Origin: a virus
Virus record (IMG/VR): IMGVR_UViG_3300021962_007334
Location: 1-30,003 of that record
Strand: one strand, 5' to 3'
Length of the DNA stretch: 30,003 nucleotides
Shown here piece after piece: positions 5,181-29,295 of the stretch. The notes under the pieces are model-generated. The model worked only from the letters and a program-made list of their open reading frames with translations. It was not told the DNA's origin and ran no database searches. Positions within the stretch are counted from its first letter, which is position 1, and the number at the start of each line of letters is the position of its first letter. The position numbers and the translations under genes were made by a program.

Positions 5181-5432
5181 ATGAGCAAAATAACACTTGA
5201 ACAATTGGTAGAAATTGCCGCAGAAGTAGAAGCAGGCGATCCTACAGATTGGGGCAAGCTAGCAGTAGGACAGCAAGAAGCATTCAAAATGATCGGTACA
5301 AGTATACTTGACATGTTCGACAAAGAAGTGTATACTGAAGATGACAAGTTAATAATGCTGGCAACTATTACCAAACTAACAGTGGAAAATATGTTGCTTA
5401 ATTTAAAAATTATGTCAGCAAACGATAAGTAA
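5181..5432 (+). CDS. Conserved small phage protein of unknown function
   Basis: An 83-residue, acidic, probably all-helical protein (ITLEQLVEIAAEVEAGDP, then WGKLAVGQQEAFKMIG). No catalytic motif, signal peptide or membrane segment is visible. It follows the oxygenase after 4 nt and is the last gene before the tmRNA acceptor piece, which begins within a few bases of its stop. I do not recognise the family. Confidence 0.7.
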   Translation: MSKITLEQLVEIAAEVEAGDPTDWGKLAVGQQEAFKMIGTSILDMFDKEVYTEDDKLIMLATITKLTVENMLLNLKIMSANDK

Positions 5433-5516
5433 TTAAGAATTGTTGTAATCCCTTCAAAGCGAAGGCGTTGCGGACCCGGGTTCGACCCCCGGCAGGTCCA
5501 CCATAAGGAGATTAGT

Positions 5517-5585
5517 ATGGACACAGGATATACCACCTTAATCGGTTTTATCTTCGTTGCTATAGTATTTCTAGTCATTTTATGA
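5517..5585 (+). CDS. Tiny membrane peptide ORF inside the tmRNA intervening segment
   Basis: An ATG at 5517 preceded at 6-nt spacing by AAGGAG encodes 22 residues: MDTGYTTLIG followed by a strongly hydrophobic stretch (FIFVAIVFLVIL). The stop TGA ends one base before the mature 5' end of the tmRNA coding piece (5587), and the ribosome site begins two bases after the CCA end (5503). It therefore fills the intervening segment that tmRNA processing removes. A single membrane span is predicted by eye. The strong ribosome site and hydrophobic content argue for a real gene, but at this length chance cannot be excluded. Confidence 0.5.
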   Translation: MDTGYTTLIGFIFVAIVFLVIL

Positions 5586-5671
5586 TGGGCCTGTATTGGC
5601 TTCGACGTGGCGAGATAGTAGAGACGGCAACACAGTAGGCGATGACTGTAAATCAAGCAAAAAACGTAAAT

Positions 5672-5758
5672 GCAAACGCAGATACATTTGACTTCAGCGC
5701 AATGAGCTTCACTGGAAATTCTGTTTCCGGCAAGAGCAAAGTTGCCCTAGCTGCCTAA
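5672..5758 (+). other. tmRNA tag reading frame (28 codons)
   Basis: The resume codon is GCA at 5672, in the same context as E. coli (CAAAAAA...GCAAAC). The frame gives a 28-residue tag that begins ANADTFDF, continues through SAMSFTGNSVSGKS and ends KVALAA before TAA at 5756. The ALAA end is the ClpXP/ClpAP degron. E. coli's tag is about 10 residues, so this one is long. The resume position is inferred by homology. Confidence 0.85.
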
Positions 5759-5804
5759 AAAACAGCGGTCCGAGGTAGTTATACCTTGTCATCCAAAATA
5801 GCAG

Positions 5805-5828
5805 AAAGCACCTTCGGGTGCTTTTCTT
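5805..5828 (+). terminator. Rho-independent terminator of the tmRNA gene
   Basis: A perfect 8-bp stem AAAGCACC/GGTGCTTT with a TTCG tetraloop is followed by TCTTTT. It sits about 45 nt after the tag stop and ends the tmRNA transcript. Confidence 0.88.
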
Positions 5829-5860
5829 TTGGTAATATTTCTAAATTATCGTGTCGAAGT

Positions 5861-9962: not shown

Positions 9963-10358
9963 ATGTCAATGCATTTAGAAGGCCCATGGCTTTCAACCAC
10001 AGGCAAACGTAAAGGCAAACAAAAATTTGCATCAGCAGAACATGCTAGAAAGGCAAGAGAATTGAACGAATCTTGGAAAGAACTACAAAAGAAATGGGCT
10101 GTAGAAGCAGAAGACAAGAAACGCAGCCGAGGTCTTTCTGCTCCTAGTTTGAGCAGTACCTATAGTCTAAAAATTCCAGAAGGCCGCAATACCACAGCGC
10201 ATATCAAGAGTGTTGATACTGGCGGCAATGCTGTTCTAAAAGAACCAAAGATCTATACAGGTACCAAAGTAAAAGGTATTGCTACCATGCACAAGAGCAA
10301 TGCTGTGCCCGTGTTTAGTGATGAAGAAGCAATTGACATTTCTAAGATGAGGAGATAA
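9963..10358 (+). CDS. Basic phage protein of unknown function
   Basis: A 131-residue, lysine/arginine-rich protein. The N-terminal 60 residues are charged and probably helical (KRKGKQKFASAEHARKAREL), the middle is Ser/Thr-rich, and the end reads VPVFSDEEAIDISKMRR. The basic helical start would allow nucleic-acid binding, but no named domain is visible. The ribosome site is TTTGGAGG. It lies 2 nt before the HNH gene and shares its transcript. Confidence 0.65.
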   Translation: MSMHLEGPWLSTTGKRKGKQKFASAEHARKARELNESWKELQKKWAVEAEDKKRSRGLSAPSLSSTYSLKIPEGRNTTAHIKSVDTGGNAVLKEPKIYTGTKVKGIATMHKSNAVPVFSDEEAIDISKMRR

Positions 10359-10789: not shown

Positions 10790-10796
10790 TTGGGTG

Positions 10797-10825
10797 TTTA
10801 CAAACCAATTGTTTGATGTTATGCT
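10797..10825 (+). promoter_or_regulatory. Promoter in front of the structured non-coding region
   Basis: TTTACA (10797-10802) and TATGCT (10820-10825) are 17 bp apart, followed by an AT-rich stretch (ATATATAAC) that offers alternative -10 boxes. CAAAC (10801-10805)/GTTTG (10811-10815) forms a dyad in the spacer. A start near 10833 would produce the RNA described next. Confidence 0.55.
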
Positions 10826-10834
10826 ATATATAAC

Positions 10835-11035
10835 TACGTTTCGCAAAGAAACTGAGATAGTAGATCTGAAGTAGGTCAAAAGCTGAAAAAGATCCGCGGG
10901 TCTTGGCCAATGAGAAACCCGTATTTTCGGGATGCCAAGGGTCGCCAAAGGCACACAAGTTATGAGATTGTGCGTCCAATGGAGACAACTACACGAAAGT
11001 AGGGTTCTTTCAGAGCCTCGTGAAGTTAACTCCCT
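10835..11035 (+). ncRNA. Candidate structured non-coding RNA of unknown class
   Basis: About 200 nt with no convincing ORF, right after a promoter and ending before the SleB leader. By eye it folds into consecutive hairpins: GTTTC-GCAAA-GAAAC; GATC/GATC closing 10873-10903; a long hairpin CTTGGC...CCCG-TATTTT-CGGG...GCCAAG; GCACacAA...TTGTGC; CTAC-ACGAAA-GTAG; GGTTCT-TTC-AGAGCC. GC content is above the flanks. It does not match tmRNA, RNase P, SRP RNA, 6S or a riboswitch that I know. It may be an independent RNA or a long leader of the SleB gene. No terminator was found; a hairpin TGTGATT/AATCACA (11044-11068) lies between it and the next ribosome site. Confidence 0.6.
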
Positions 11036-11087
11036 TTATGTAATGTGATTTAATTTTTTTGAATCACACCAAGTCAAAGGAGGACTT

Positions 11088-11633
11088 ATGGAAAAGTTAT
11101 TTAGATTTACAGCCTACGTTGCAGGCTTATTAGTAGTAGCCATATTGGTTCAAAGTGTTACTCATGCCAAAATGGAAAAACTACGAGAGGGTCAGATGTT
11201 ATCGTCTAACGATGTTGTAACGATCAAGACCAGAGAAAGGCAGCTCGAATGTTTAGCCATGAACATCTATCGAGAAGCAGGACATGAAAACTTTGAAGGT
11301 AAGGTAGCGGTAGCACAAGTTACTATGAACAGGGCATCTCATCCTTCGTTCCCAAAAGACGTCTGTGGAGTTGTCTATCAAAAGTCAGTAATAATGGACC
11401 GAGTCATTTGCCAATTCTCATGGTATTGTGATACTGCTCATAAGGCTAGACCTGTTAACCAAACAGCCTACAATGAAAGTATGTCGGTGGCCAAAAAGGT
11501 ATTATTGGAAGGATTCCGACTTGACGTAATGAAAGAAGCCCTGTATTATCATGCTAACTATGTCAATCCTAAATGGAACTTAGAAAAAATTGGATCAATT
11601 GGTAATCACATCTTTTACAAAGGCAAGAACTAA
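11088..11633 (+). CDS. SleB-type cell wall hydrolase (Hydrolase_2), membrane-anchored
   Basis: A 181-residue protein. A hydrophobic segment at residues 7-25 serves as a membrane anchor or signal-arrest sequence. The body matches the SleB/CwlJ hydrolase family: CLAMNIYREAGHENFEGKVA with the catalytic Glu in YREAG, VAQVTMNRASHPSFP, CQFSWYCD, ALYYHANYVNPKW and GNHIFYKG. The family cleaves the glycan strands of peptidoglycan. An endolysin held at the membrane, like SAR endolysins, is a good guess for its role in host lysis. It has a strong ribosome site (AAAGGAGGA) and precedes a small membrane protein. Confidence 0.88.
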   Translation: MEKLFRFTAYVAGLLVVAILVQSVTHAKMEKLREGQMLSSNDVVTIKTRERQLECLAMNIYREAGHENFEGKVAVAQVTMNRASHPSFPKDVCGVVYQKSVIMDRVICQFSWYCDTAHKARPVNQTAYNESMSVAKKVLLEGFRLDVMKEALYYHANYVNPKWNLEKIGSIGNHIFYKGKN

Positions 11634-16212: not shown

Positions 16213-18114
16213 ATGTCAAAGATCATCGGTATCGACTTAGGTACCACAAACTCATGCGTAGCCGTTATTGAAAACGGTATCCCCAAAGTTATTGAAAATT
16301 CAGAAGGTGCCAGAACAACACCCTCAATCGTTGCCTACGGCAAAGATGAAATTTTAGTAGGCGCCAGCGCAAAGCGCCAATCAGTAACTAACCCAAAAAA
16401 TACCATCTATGCATCAAAGCGTTTGATCGGTAGAAAATTTAAAGAGGAAGCTGTCCAAAAAGACATCAACCTAATGCCTTACGAAATTATGGAAGCCAAG
16501 AACGGAGATGCTTGGGTTCGTGTAAACGATCAAGAACTTGCTCCTCCACAGATCTCAGCTGAAGTTCTTCGTAAGATGAAAAAGACCGCGGAGGATTATC
16601 TTGGTACAACAGTTACTCAAGCAGTTATTACAGTCCCTGCGTACTTTAACGACAGCCAGCGACAGGCTACAAAGGACGCTGGTAAAATCGCAGGCTTGGA
16701 GGTACTCCGTATTATTAACGAGCCTACTGCGGCAGCTCTTGCTTATGGTGTTGATAAAGCTGATAAAAAAGATAGGAAAATTGCTGTTTACGATCTTGGT
16801 GGCGGTACATTCGATGTTTCAATCATCGAGATAGCCAACGTCGACGGCGACAAACAAATTGAAGTATTGTCAACCAATGGCGACACGTTCCTAGGTGGTG
16901 AAGACTTCGACCAGCGTATCATGGACTTCTTGGTTGAAGAATTCAAGAAAGATCAAGGCGTAGACCTAACCAAGGATGTTTTGGCACTCCAGCGTCTAAA
17001 AGAAAGTGCAGAGAAAGCCAAGATCGAATTATCAAGTTCAGCACAAACATCAGTTAACCTGCCATACATTACAGCAGATGCAAGTGGCCCTAAGCACATG
17101 AACATTACTATCAGTCGTTCTAAGTTAGAACAACTAGTAGATGAATTAATCCAACGTTCAGTGGGACCATGCAAGACAGCAATGTCAGATGCAGGTGTAA
17201 GTACAAGCGACATCGACGAAGTTATTCTTGTTGGTGGTATGACACGTATGCCTAAGGTACAGGAAACTGTAGAAAAGTTGTTTGGTAAGGCACCACGTAA
17301 GGATGTTAACCCAGACGAAGCAGTTGCCGCAGGTGCTGCTGTTCAAGGTGCAGTTCTAGGCGGCGATCGTAATGACGTTCTATTGTTAGACGTAACACCA
17401 TTGAGCCTAGGTATCGAAACTATGGGAGGTGTGTTTGCCAAGGTTATTCAAAAGAACACAACTATTCCTACTAAAGGACAACAGGTGTTCTCAACAGCAG
17501 AAGACAACCAGCCTGCCGTGACCATCAAGGTCTTCCAGGGAGAGCGTGAGCTTGTACAACACAATAAGCTGTTAGGTGAATTTAATCTAGAAGGTATTGC
17601 TCCGGCTCGTCGAGGCCAACCGCAGATCGAAGTTGCATTTGACATCGATGCCAACGGTATCATGCATATCAGTGCTAAAGACAAAGGCACAGGCAAAGAG
17701 AACAAGATCACTATCAAATCAGACAGTGGTTTAAGTAAAGATGAAATTGAACGTATGGTTCGTGAAGCCGAAGAAAATGCTGAGAGTGATAAACAAGCTC
17801 GCACACTTATCGATACTCGCAATCAAGCAGAAGCCACTGTACATGAAATTAAAAAAGATCTTGAAGAATTCAAAGACGAATTAACTGATACAGAAAAAAC
17901 AGAAATCGAGACAGCAGTAAAATCAGTCGAAGACGCTATGAAAGAAGACGACGCTGATAAAATTAAAGCTGAACTTGAAAAAGTTTTTCCTGCAATGAAA
18001 ACATTGTTGGAGAAAAAGCAGGCTAAGGAACAGGCAGCTAATGCGCCTCAACCCGAAGCCAAAGCAGAAGACAATGTAGTAGACGCTACCTTTACGGAGA
18101 CAAAGTCTAACTAA
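16213..18114 (+). CDS. dnaK: Hsp70 chaperone DnaK
   Basis: A full-length, 633-residue DnaK. The ATPase domain starts [14 protein letters not shown] (phosphate 1 motif) and contains [14 protein letters not shown] (phosphate 2) and [15 protein letters not shown] (adenosine motif). The interdomain linker [16 protein letters not shown] is intact, as is the substrate-binding domain ([15 protein letters not shown]) and lid helices. The acidic C-terminal end (EDNVVDATF) resembles cellular DnaK (EEVKD-type) tails. Sequence is close in character to beta/gammaproteobacterial DnaK, suggesting capture from a host. It has all motifs for activity; no DnaJ or GrpE gene lies in the window, so host partners must serve. 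Codons show no clear break from neighbours. Confidence 0.98.
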
Positions 18115-22454: not shown

Positions 22455-23726
22455 ATGAAACAGACAATAATATCCCTAGCAGTAATAGCGGTCTTATCTG
22501 GCTGTGCTAGTAGTTCAGCACTAAGAGAAAAAATAACAGGCAATCAATTTGACGAGCCTAAAGTCGAAGCCAGCAAGTTCCTAAAAAAGGATCAGAATAA
22601 ACTACGTCCACCGCAAGGCGGCCCTTTACCTGTTGCTGTTTACGGTTTCCGTGATTTAACTGGACAGCGAAAAAGCCAACCCCTAATTGCTTCACTAAGT
22701 TCAGCAGTTACACAGGGTGCTGAAAACTATTTGATCAAAGCCCTACAAGATGTAGGCGAAGCTCGTTGGTTCACAGTGCTAGAACGTGTAGGCCTAGAAA
22801 ACCTAATTAAAGAACGTCAGATGATTCGTCAGATGCGTGAGCAGTATCAAGGCCGCGATGCCAAAATGTTGCCCCCAATGATGTTCGCTGGTATTATCAT
22901 GGAAGGCGGTATTGTTGGCTATGATAGCAATACACTAACTGGTGGTAGTGGTATAAGAATTTTTGGCATCGGTGCAAGCACACAATATCAAAGTGATACT
23001 GTAACCATTACCTTGCGTACAGTTTCTGTAAGTACAGGCGAAATCTTGACCACAGTTACAATAACTAAAACAGTCCTAAGCTACATGGACAAGATGACAT
23101 TATTGAGATTTGTTGATGACGGTACACAGTTCGGTGCTGGAGCAAATGCACTAGAAGGTGAAGTCGGTGGAAGTATCAATGAAAGTATCAACCGTGCCAT
23201 CGATGTAGCTGTGCAGGCTGCGGTAATTCAAACCATTAATGAAGGCGCCCGCAAAGGACACTGGAGTTTCAAGGAGGAAAGAAATGAGTTGGTTCAATCA
23301 CAAGCCCCGGCCCAAAGAGCCCCAGAAGTTGCACCCGCACCATTACAGCCCAGCAACACAGAAAGCCCTAGAGCAAGCAAAGCTCCTGAGCCCGCACCAG
23401 AAGTCAAACAAGAAGTAAAGAAGGAGGAACCTAAAAATGATGTCAAGCCTACTACAGCAGTTGTTCCGCCAGCGCCAGCAGCAGCGCCAACAGCAGAAAA
23501 CCCAGCAAAGCCAACAGAAGAATATAAAATAGGCGATGTGAAATTTTTTAAAGAGCCGTTTTATGTTAGAGTTAAGGCCACCGAAGATAGCACAAAGCAA
23601 TGGTTATTTTTGAAGGGTACAGAAGTAAAGATAATTGAAGTTGATAATAATTGGGTTAAAGTACAGACTCGAGATGGTAAGAAAGGATTTGTTCTTGTTG
23701 ACAAGTTAAGTCCAATTAAACCATAA
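22455..23726 (+). CDS. csgG: Curli secretion pore CsgG with C-terminal SH3-like extension
   Basis: A 423-residue lipoprotein (lipobox VLSGCASS, Cys17), against about 277 in E. coli. Residues 55-275 are CsgG: VAVYGFRDLTGQ, RWFTVLERVGLENLIKERQ, IMEGGIVGYDSNTLTGGSG, FGIGASTQYQSD, TVSVSTGEILTTV and ALEGEVGGS each have close E. coli counterparts. CsgG forms the nonameric outer-membrane channel for curli subunits. The constriction loop differs: where E. coli has PYPASNF (Tyr51, Asn55, Phe56), this protein reads QPLIASL, one residue longer and without the aromatics. Residues 285-350 are a Pro/Ala/Glu/Lys-rich linker, and 355-423 an SH3b-like domain (KEPFYVRVKATED, WVKVQTRDGKKGFV), which often binds peptidoglycan. 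The extension would face the periplasm. Confidence 0.93.
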   Translation: MKQTIISLAVIAVLSGCASSSALREKITGNQFDEPKVEASKFLKKDQNKLRPPQGGPLPVAVYGFRDLTGQRKSQPLIASLSSAVTQGAENYLIKALQDVGEARWFTVLERVGLENLIKERQMIRQMREQYQGRDAKMLPPMMFAGIIMEGGIVGYDSNTLTGGSGIRIFGIGASTQYQSDTVTITLRTVSVSTGEILTTVTITKTVLSYMDKMTLLRFVDDGTQFGAGANALEGEVGGSINESINRAIDVAVQAAVIQTINEGARKGHWSFKEERNELVQSQAPAQRAPEVAPAPLQPSNTESPRASKAPEPAPEVKQEVKKEEPKNDVKPTTAVVPPAPAAAPTAENPAKPTEEYKIGDVKFFKEPFYVRVKATEDSTKQWLFLKGTEVKIIEVDNNWVKVQTRDGKKGFVLVDKLSPIKP

Positions 23727-23737
23727 GTGTTGATATT

Positions 23738-23767
23738 TTTACATGTTGAAAAATTTACATGTTGAAA
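23738..23767 (+). repeat. Tandem 14-bp direct repeats upstream of the curlin gene
   Basis: TTTACATGTTGAAA occurs twice, at 23738-23751 and 23754-23767 (16-bp period), each ending in a TTGAAA that could serve as a -35 box. A regulator binding site in front of the first curlin gene is plausible. The rest of 23768-23919 is AT-rich, with a TATAAT at 23858-23863 lacking a -35, and a stem-loop TGTCGG/CCGACA (23887-23909) shortly before ATG 23920. Confidence 0.6.
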
Positions 23768-23919
23768 TTTTAACAGCGGCATTTAATTTATAGACAGTAG
23801 CAATTAAATAAATTTATATGAAATACATCTACAGAGAGGAGTAGATACGAGAAACAGTATAATTACAGGTCAAAGACCAAGGAACTTGTCGGCGAATAAT
23901 AAACCGACATTAAAGAAAA

Positions 23920-24735
23920 ATGAAATATAGAAAGACAGGCGTTGGCGAGTTGTCGAGAAAATTACTCGCAGTAGCAATGGTTGTTGGCTCTAGTACAATT
24001 TGGGCACAAGCCGCTACTGGACCTAATAAGGTCTATATCGAGCAGGTCGGTAGTAGCAATACTATTACTATCGAACAGGTTGGTGGAACCAACAACGTTG
24101 GTGGCGTTACAACTACCGTAGCAACAGCAGTTGCCGGCACTGGTATTACCACACTTACGCCGGATGCACCCAGTGCTACAAACTACGGTACTATCACTGG
24201 TAGTACAAACACTGTGAATATTACTCAAACTGGTAATGCTAATAGTAGTCAATATAATATTAGAGGTACAAATAACCAATATACTACTAATATGTTAGGA
24301 AACAATAACCAAACTAGATTGACTGTTGGTAATGCTAACAATGCAACCAATAATCTTAATGTTATCACCGAACAAATTATTGGAAACAATAATATGATCA
24401 TTCAAGATTTGGTCGGTAGCAATATCAATACTACTACATCATTAGATGGCGACAATAACCAAGTTACTAGCAGTTTGCTAAGTAGCCGAGGAACTGTAAC
24501 CAATACTGTTTTAGGTAATGCTAACGTATTCAATATCCAACAAACAGATGCAGCCGGTGCTAACGGCCACGTTCTTGCTATGAATACATCAGGCGATTAC
24601 AACAGCATTACTACACAGCAACAGGGTACTAACGATACTACAGTTAATATCCAAACACAAGGTAGCAACAACACTATCACAGTTCGTACAAGTAGTTCAA
24701 CTATTGTATCACCTGCTACAGCGATTGCGAGATAA
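23920..24735 (+). CDS. Curlin-repeat secreted protein (CsgA/CsgB-like)
   Basis: A 271-residue exported protein. After a signal peptide ending in WAQA, it contains many imperfect curlin repeats of the form N-x-(I/V)-x-I-x-Q-x-G-x-x-N: YIEQVGSSNTITIEQVGGTN, NTVNITQTGNANSSQYNI, TVNIQTQGSNNTITV. The middle repeats keep the asparagine ladder (GNNNQ, GNNNM, GDNNQ) but lose some glutamines. Such repeats stack as a beta-solenoid and form amyloid fibres secreted by CsgG. Repeats at both ends are the best conserved. The ribosome site is weak (AAAGAAAA). Adjacent CsgF and CsgG make export through that pore likely. Confidence 0.88.
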   Translation: MKYRKTGVGELSRKLLAVAMVVGSSTIWAQAATGPNKVYIEQVGSSNTITIEQVGGTNNVGGVTTTVATAVAGTGITTLTPDAPSATNYGTITGSTNTVNITQTGNANSSQYNIRGTNNQYTTNMLGNNNQTRLTVGNANNATNNLNVITEQIIGNNNMIIQDLVGSNINTTTSLDGDNNQVTSSLLSSRGTVTNTVLGNANVFNIQQTDAAGANGHVLAMNTSGDYNSITTQQQGTNDTTVNIQTQGSNNTITVRTSSSTIVSPATAIAR

Positions 24736-27224: not shown

Positions 27225-27247
27225 TCAGCATAAATATTTCATGCTGA
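27225..27247 (+). promoter_or_regulatory. Hairpin over the start codon of the cyclase, with NATAAATA motif
   Basis: TCAGCAT (27225-27231) and ATGCTGA (27241-27247) form a 7-bp inverted repeat; the second arm holds the ATG. The first arm and loop contain CATAAATA (27229-27236), which fits the NATAAATA late motif. If transcription began beside the ATG the hairpin would be absent; in read-through RNA it would hide the start. Confidence 0.5.
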
Positions 27248-29295
27248 AAAAAATCCTAACTAGTCCTTGGACTGCCCTTTTAACATTGGCACTTATTTTA
27301 AGTATAAGAATTGCTGATCCTGTCTTTGTAGAAAGTGTAAGACTACGCTACTTTGACACACTAATTACACAAAAAGCTCCTACAGCTAACAACATCTATG
27401 CAGTAAACATAGATGAAGCAGCATTGGACAAATACGGTCAATGGCCTTTACCGAGGGCAGAGTATGCAAAAATTATTAAAGATCTTTATGATCGTGGCGC
27501 TGGCCTTGTTGTGCTCAATGTTATCATGGCTGAGTCTGATCGCACTGGTGGCGATGCTGTTCTCGCAAATGCCCTAAAACAATATCCAGTTGTATTAGGA
27601 TCAGTTCCTAGTGATCGAACAAAAAATAAACCTCGCAATCCTGGATCAGCGGTACTAGGGCCAGAACATCTAGATCAAATCGTACAGTATCCCGGATTAA
27701 TTGCTAATATTCCTTCATTAGAAAACGCTGCCGCAGGCATTGGTATTGTTAGTACACTTCCTGAAGTAGACGGTGTTAATCGAAGATTGCCGTTAGTAGT
27801 ATCAGTAGACGGAAAACTATATCCTAGTATATCGATGGAAGCTCTACGTGTGGCTGCTGGGGATTCTACTTTCCAAGTTAAACTCAACGAAGGCGGTGTT
27901 GAGAAAATGCGTATTCCAAAGTTTGGCCCTATTACTACAGATCCATTGGGTCGTGTGTGGATCGATTGGAGTCAAGAGAATAAACAAGCAAGTCTAATGA
28001 ACCTGCCAAAAGACTTTCACGGCGCTATTGTTATTGTAGGTCCAACGGCAGCAGGCATTGCCAATCCTTTACCTACAAGCAAAGGCGCTGTATTTCCACA
28101 AGACGTGCAGGCCGCAGTAATTGGCACAATGGTTAACGGCATTACTATCCAGAGACCCGATTGGGCCGATGGTGCTGAACTCATAGCCCTAGCAGCATTG
28201 GGCATAGCTTTACTTTTCTTAACGAGGTGGACTTATGTTGGACTTGCTAGTGGCGTTATCGCTCTTGGTGTTTTGTATCCTGTTTCTCAATATCTGTATA
28301 CGAATAATCTTTGGCTCGTTGACATCACTGCTCTTGCTGTTGGCCTCACTCTTGTTCTGCTTCATGCTTATGGCGTTAAGTTTGTAAGTGAGTTCTTGCA
28401 GAAACAGGCAATCAAGAAACAGTTTGCTGGCTACTGCTCTCCCGAAGTTGTTAGACTGTTGCAGGAGAATCCAGACTTAATCAAGAAAGGCGTTAAGAAA
28501 GATGTATCAGTCATGTTCTCAGACTTACGCGGCTTTACTCCTATCGGCGAATACTTTGACAGGCCAGGCAACGGTGGTCCAGAAGGATTGGCACAGTATA
28601 TGAACGGATATATGGATGCTATTACTATTCCAATCATCGATGCCAACGGTATGGTTATCAAGTATGTAGGTGATGCAAGTATGCACATGCACGGTGCTCC
28701 ACTAGATGATCCTAATCATGCTCGCACTATTGTTGAAGTGGGTCTAAAGATGTTAGATGCTGTAGCTGCCTTTACCAAAGAAAAAGAAGCACAAGGTTTA
28801 CCGCCAGCTGCAATGGGGTGGGGTTGTAATACCGGCGATGGCTACATCGGTGAAATGGGTAGTACAGCAAGACACGGGTATGACATTTTAGGCGACATGG
28901 TTTCAACAGCCGCACGTTTAGAAGCACGTTGTAAAGCATACGGTGTGTTATGTATTATCGGCGCTGAAACATACAACAGGACTAAAGATGATTTCTTTTA
29001 CTTGCTATTGGACAATTTACAACCAAAAGGTAAGACAGTAGCAGATTTGATCTATACAGCATTACGTACTCGCGGTGAAGATTACACTAGAGATAAGATA
29101 ACACATGATGTAATGCACGACTTGTACAAACAGAAAAAGTTTGACGAGGCTGCGGCAATTTGTGCTAAGATGACAGGCACCTTTGGCGGACAAATGGACA
29201 CGTATTACGAAATGTGGATTGAACGCTGTGCGTTTATGAAAGAACAAAAATTACCGGATAACTGGAACGGTGAGTTTGTAGCTCACGAAAAGTAA
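27241..29295 (+). CDS. CHASE2-domain adenylate/guanylate cyclase
   Basis: A 684-residue membrane signalling enzyme. A membrane segment at 10-25 is followed by an extracytoplasmic CHASE2 sensor (about 30-305: IYAVNIDEAALDKYGQWPLP, VVLGSVPSD, GVNRRLPLVV), three membrane segments (about 307-385), and a class III cyclase domain (about 420-600). Metal-binding Asp428 (MFSDLRGF) and Asp478 (KYVGDAS) are present; Lys474 and Asp548 (HGYDILGD) favour adenine. The transition-state Asn of the usual GDxVNxAARLE is Ser555 here, while Arg559 is kept; activity may be lowered. It lacks a Shine-Dalgarno site. It closes the curli cluster. Confidence 0.93.
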   Translation: MLKKILTSPWTALLTLALILSIRIADPVFVESVRLRYFDTLITQKAPTANNIYAVNIDEAALDKYGQWPLPRAEYAKIIKDLYDRGAGLVVLNVIMAESDRTGGDAVLANALKQYPVVLGSVPSDRTKNKPRNPGSAVLGPEHLDQIVQYPGLIANIPSLENAAAGIGIVSTLPEVDGVNRRLPLVVSVDGKLYPSISMEALRVAAGDSTFQVKLNEGGVEKMRIPKFGPITTDPLGRVWIDWSQENKQASLMNLPKDFHGAIVIVGPTAAGIANPLPTSKGAVFPQDVQAAVIGTMVNGITIQRPDWADGAELIALAALGIALLFLTRWTYVGLASGVIALGVLYPVSQYLYTNNLWLVDITALAVGLTLVLLHAYGVKFVSEFLQKQAIKKQFAGYCSPEVVRLLQENPDLIKKGVKKDVSVMFSDLRGFTPIGEYFDRPGNGGPEGLAQYMNGYMDAITIPIIDANGMVIKYVGDASMHMHGAPLDDPNHARTIVEVGLKMLDAVAAFTKEKEAQGLPPAAMGWGCNTGDGYIGEMGSTARHGYDILGDMVSTAARLEARCKAYGVLCIIGAETYNRTKDDFFYLLLDNLQPKGKTVADLIYTALRTRGEDYTRDKITHDVMHDLYKQKKFDEAAAICAKMTGTFGGQMDTYYEMWIERCAFMKEQKLPDNWNGEFVAHEK

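Follow-up and report, generated by a model that had tools for sequence, protein, structure and literature searches.

A conserved folded RNA at the start of phage lysin genes and its possible role as a translational switch

What does a folded RNA of about 200 nt do directly upstream of a phage lysin gene? The RNA considered here lies on the + strand of a 30,003-base virus record (the window, meaning the whole stretch of DNA analysed). The first-pass annotation had placed it at 10835-11035, between an HNH gene and a lysin gene. The RNA is real in that interval, but its conservation is longer, running from a TATATA-type box through hairpin H6 to the Shine-Dalgarno sequence of the lysin gene; the conserved structured RNA itself spans 10835-11068 (Table 1). 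We think it rather likely that the RNA is a cis-acting 5' leader of the lysin mRNA that works as a translational switch, and that it probably helps to set the moment of host lysis. The timing of lysis is a classic question, and the answers so far have come mainly from holins and antiholins.

Table 1. The RNA, its parts and the adjacent lysin gene, in window coordinates.
Feature	Position	Strand	Basis
Promoter-like box (TATGCTATATATAA; TATATA-type, 10824-10833), directly before the RNA	10820..10833	+	conserved in nearly all clades
Whole conserved RNA domain, aptamer-like	10835..11045	+	homologue comparison, covariance model
H1 hairpin at the RNA 5' end, GUUUC/GAAAC and a conserved loop	10838..10852	+	nearly invariant
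H2 hairpin; stem sequence and length variable, pairing preserved	10863..10894	+	re-dealt-arm test
H3 helix with inner CCCG/CGGG hairpin	10896..10945	+	covariation, including CG/AU double changes
H4 hairpin; GUUAUGA loop in most members	10950..10977	+	double changes in 7 of 8 pairs
H5 helix stack, closed by GGAG (10981-10984) : CUCC (11030-11033)	10981..11033	+	covariation in the upper helices; closing helix almost invariant
Switching strand CUCCCUUU; partner is the domain GGAG or the Shine-Dalgarno	11030..11037	+	predicted
H6 hairpin, within the predicted hairpin that hides the ribosome site	11044..11068	+	re-dealt-arm test
CCAAGUC linker and Shine-Dalgarno AAAGGAGG (11076-11083), conserved	11069..11083	+	homologue comparison
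SleB/Hydrolase_2 cell wall hydrolase (endolysin), proposed controlled gene	11088..11633	+	PF07486, E 7.6e-26; PHROG endolysin

The RNA family and its fold

Neither the whole Rfam 15 library at the gathering cut-off nor a permissive Rfam search matched the intergenic sequence (10790-11087), in agreement with the earlier remark that the RNA belongs to no nameable class. A blastn search with the window's copy turned up nothing clearly related in 50,697 phage records and no match in 72,556 plasmid records. One diverged copy had no match among cultured phage records, and the best match of another was 25 nt long (E 0.3). No description of this RNA was found in open-access papers. Among the IMG/VR homologues of the lysin, eight loci have the RNA at the same place; three scans with conserved blocks returned at least 120 stretches each, and further scans were aimed at diverged blocks. 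The IMG/VR census contains at least 222 loci with a copy, at least 148 of them distinct. The covariance-model core (10895-11045) scores 189 bits with model R1 and 168 bits with model R2, and the scores of the diverged copies go as low as 51 bits (E 3e-9) for the first model and 82 bits for the second. Contigs of 353, 372, 372 and 278 kb each carry exactly one copy of the RNA and a T4-type portal protein, and are therefore from large T4-like phages. Judged by these sequence comparisons of metagenomic contigs, the RNA is a previously undescribed family of folded phage RNA, and well over a hundred genome fragments of large T4-like phages contain it. Large internal deletions are found in four copies (L100, L146, L236 and L239), in which H5, H6 and the lysin gene are retained; these deletions are either real or artefacts of assembly.

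The 201 nt at 10835-11035 are predicted to fold with -60.4 kcal/mol, compared to -48.4 +/- 4.0 kcal/mol for dinucleotide shuffles (z -2.98), and the leader extended to just past the lysin start codon has a z of -3.41 against shuffles. Good folding is also predicted for the opposite strand, a common finding with sequences of this kind. Covariation among the homologues is strong, so that the refuting outcome named in the first-pass annotation, a lack of covariation, did not occur. In an alignment of 58 diverse, related copies, 97.1% of the cells in 42 pairs are standard pairs, a percentage that is inflated by the fitting of the alignment to the model; sliding the partners by one base, a control that preserves relatedness, leaves fewer than 48% of the cells paired. 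Both sides have changed in 19 of the 42 pairs, with 156 such cells versus 31.6 +/- 5.2 in shuffles, and none of 500 shuffles reached any of five measures of covariation. H2 and H6 are outside the covariance model, and their arms were tested by re-dealing them among distinct copies. On average, H2 forms 4.77 of 5 pairs (3.53 when re-dealt; 43 distinct arm pairs), and H6 forms 5.79 of 6 (4.24 when re-dealt; 38 distinct arm pairs). H1 is nearly invariant and so offers no changes to compare. Thus, both the structured nature of the RNA and six hairpin units, the first-pass annotation having proposed at least six, are borne out by fold stability and by compensatory changes across homologues, the latter in five of the six units. 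A candidate pseudoknot in the window's subtype (GAAAGUA:UAUUUUC) was dropped, as it is absent by inspection from the other subtypes.

The RNA had also been described as lacking an open reading frame, correctly so: stop-free runs average within one standard deviation of those in shuffles. Some copies contain a frame of 50-60 codons, but with stop-free runs near chance, and the spacings of the invariant blocks include every remainder on division by 3. We reject a short protein-coding gene because of these near-chance runs and because the indels that separate the blocks would break a reading frame, their lengths not being multiples of three. The claim that the RNA has its own promoter-like sequence is better supported by the CTATATA box that abuts it, which is retained in nearly all clades while the sequence farther upstream is variable, than by the sigma-70 match (TTTACA-17-TATGCT, 9 of 12 positions), which by itself is at chance level (2 found, 1.8 expected). 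There is no intrinsic terminator between the RNA and the lysin gene.

Linkage to lysin genes

The constant neighbor of the RNA is a lysin gene. Downstream genes could be assigned for 130 of the at least 148 distinct copies, 18 being too near a contig end. The downstream gene is a SleB/Hydrolase_2 lysin in 112 copies and an RlpA-like (DPBB) lytic transglycosylase, which is not homologous to SleB, in 16, such that 128 of the 130 copies precede a peptidoglycan-degrading enzyme of one of two unrelated families. One of the remaining two precedes a small secreted protein and the other an inserted element. Three further RlpA-type loci were found after the final census. In the RlpA-type clade, which consists of diverged copies, the downstream gene matches PF03330 (DPBB; E 1.5e-23) and the upstream genes are different, among them genes for PAAR proteins, but the box, the RNA, H6, the linker and the Shine-Dalgarno are the same as at SleB-type loci.

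The upstream side is less constant. In the window, the upstream gene is an HNH-type endonuclease by its PHROG match, and a Pfam search of this gene gave no match. In our first census, all 91 downstream genes found were SleB-type lysins, and 74 of 95 loci had upstream a homologue of window 9963-10358 (PHROG 27048); relatives of the window's HNH-like insert were present in only 11 of 95. The lysin gene is therefore the meaningful half of the position given by the first-pass annotation, and the HNH gene is incidental, most relatives being without it.

Copies of the RNA differ little in their distance from the start codon, and conservation is higher in the RNA than in the lysin beside it (95% nucleotide versus 66% amino acid identity at one locus, L008, and 74% versus 40% at another, L054). 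The RNA keeps its place before the lysin gene even where one lysin has been exchanged for another, and regulation of that gene is the simplest role for it, although part of this linkage could come from common descent of gene order. Several loci depart from the usual arrangement. The most diverged copies (L363/L387) are followed by the gene for the small secreted protein mentioned above (85 aa) and no recognised lysin, and have lost the CACCAA linker. At L096, RNA and lysin are separated by a foreign insertion; by eye, it resembles a transposase of the IS200/IS605 type in the opposite orientation. At L057, a tmRNA-like sequence ends, by eye, just before the start of the lysin homologue.

Pairing of the ribosome site

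The closing strand of the RNA domain could also hide the ribosome site. Apart from one bulged C, CUCCCUUU is the complement of AAAGGAG in the lysin Shine-Dalgarno, and this pairing would enclose H6 in a longer hairpin. In the 3' segment alone, the Shine-Dalgarno is predicted to be paired with a mean probability of 0.93 (103 copies, which are related and so not independent samples), and replacement of CUCCC in this segment lowers the predicted probability to 0.23. In the whole leader the predicted probability is 0.44, and ribosome sites of ordinary genes of related phages average 0.51. The local hairpin that hides the Shine-Dalgarno is predicted for the 3' segment and not for the whole leader, in which folding programs nevertheless leave the ribosome site partly paired. 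In the structure of lowest predicted energy, CUCC remains part of the domain in most members. Both states are computationally feasible: when the alternatives are forced, the median gap between them is 2.5 kcal/mol, which could be bridged by binding of a ligand or a protein. A broader claim, that a hidden ribosome site is general among the SleB-lysin leaders of these phages, was tried and rejected, as 55 homologues, mostly without the RNA, gave a pairing probability of 0.49 compared to 0.51 for other genes (p 0.48).

An almost invariant closing helix beside covarying helices fits a CUCC strand with two partners, although invariance alone is no proof. Nor can covariation prove the anti-Shine-Dalgarno pairing: neither of its strands varies, and for each there is a further cause of invariance. 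A GGAG:CUCC closing strand that is predicted to double as an anti-Shine-Dalgarno is the layout of a translational riboswitch.

We postulate that transcription starts at the box (10824-10833) and continues into the lysin gene. When the aptamer-like domain of about 200 nt is folded and stabilised, GGAG:CUCC pairing would hold the switching strand, leaving the Shine-Dalgarno free, and lysin would be made. When the domain is open, CUCC(C)UUU would pair with AAAGGAG around H6, hiding the ribosome site and turning lysin off. We infer that the RNA is transcribed, acts in cis and alternates between these states in vivo, with the choice made by a ligand, a protein or an event late in infection. The linkage to two non-homologous lysins, the lack of a terminator and the built-in anti-Shine-Dalgarno support the suggestion in the first-pass annotation of a long leader that controls lysin expression; of its two other suggestions, a phage sRNA is less likely and an anti-defence RNA found no support.

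Precedents and alternatives

The lysozyme gene e of phage T4 has a ribosome site that is hidden in early transcripts and freed by late promoters inside the hairpin (PMC3014915), and is therefore a precedent for control at this step. The likeness extends to the phages, which are T4-like, and to an RNA structure at the lysin start that can hide the Shine-Dalgarno. However, T4 gene e has one small hairpin, whereas here a conserved 200-nt domain has a closing strand that competes for the anti-Shine-Dalgarno. Inspection of 11030-11080 found no T4-type late promoter (TATAAATA) in the 5' strand of the hairpin; the only such box is upstream of the whole RNA, at 10824-10833, and therefore the late-promoter mechanism of T4 gene e is not used.

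In translational riboswitches, the closing strand of the aptamer doubles as an anti-Shine-Dalgarno. The present RNA resembles them in its large covarying 5'-leader domain, its predicted alternative pairing of the Shine-Dalgarno and its downstream genes of one function, but differs in being found so far only in phages and on lysis enzymes rather than metabolic genes. The manA and wcaG motifs are riboswitch candidates in T4-like cyanophages (PMC2864571), and, like the present RNA, are structured and conserved and lie in what may be 5' leaders of genes in T4-like phages. They are on sugar, exopolysaccharide and light-related genes, however, and differ in sequence and structure from the present RNA, which matched neither in Rfam. 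GOLLD and ROOL, large RNAs of phages and bacteria, are similarly ornate and conserved, but they are larger than the present RNA, are not tied to lysin leaders and gave no Rfam match to it.

Several observations could be read in other ways. An RNA that is more conserved than the adjacent lysin, with invariant loops that suggest binding partners and a 5'-end hairpin (H1) that would protect an RNA, might act in trans on host or phage RNAs or proteins. It would have its own late promoter and be processed from the lysin mRNA, and its position would reflect a late-gene neighborhood. We consider this unlikely: no terminator separates the RNA from the lysin gene, conservation of the element includes H6 and the linker as far as the Shine-Dalgarno, and linkage to two unrelated lysin families would not be expected. 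A constitutive structural leader, a larger form of that of T4 gene e, could instead stabilise the lysin mRNA or set its translation without sensing. The T4 precedent, the 5'-terminal hairpin and a predicted minimum-energy state that mostly leaves CUCC in the domain are all consistent with such a leader, but a role in stability or opening needs no invariant loops and covarying helices over some 150 nt, and we regard it as distinctly unlikely. The size and complexity of the RNA, and its lack of a match to any known class, would also fit a ribozyme or a protein-binding site for packaging or host takeover. This is highly improbable, as no Rfam ribozyme matched and the linkage to lysins would be without a reason. 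We therefore continue to favor the cis-acting translational switch. A widespread lysin-leader RNA that survives lysin exchange and contains a ribosome-site switch would make RNA control of lysis directly testable. As a candidate phage riboswitch, it may have a ligand that is a host or infection signal.

Five contigs, one of 300 kb and one of 349 kb, have a different, unrelated and highly conserved RNA of about 260 nt directly upstream of a SleB-type lysin gene (L009, L010/L395, L396, L397 and L398). Its predicted fold is -83 to -85 kcal/mol in two of the five. Rfam searches with L009 and L010 gave no match, and the broad model R2 did not match it as a distant member of the first family, which is absent from L010, a 349-kb phage of the same kind. 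By inspection, a CUCACCUUU strand within the fold of this second RNA is a possible partner for the Shine-Dalgarno. RNA control of lysis would gain in plausibility if ornate leaders had arisen independently at lysin genes. We speculate, tentatively and with more doubt than conviction, that a phage-only riboswitch class senses a late-infection signal and licenses lysin translation, the two unrelated RNAs in the same spot each serving as a lysis timer.

The window contains other features. A phage-encoded tmRNA at 5411-5849, with a tag ending in ALAA, matches the permuted and betaproteobacterial tmRNA families, and these matches suggest a betaproteobacterial host. Unusual cargo at 16213-18114, 22455-24735 and 27241-29295 comprises DnaK (E 1e-258), CsgG, a curlin-repeat protein and a CHASE2-cyclase protein.
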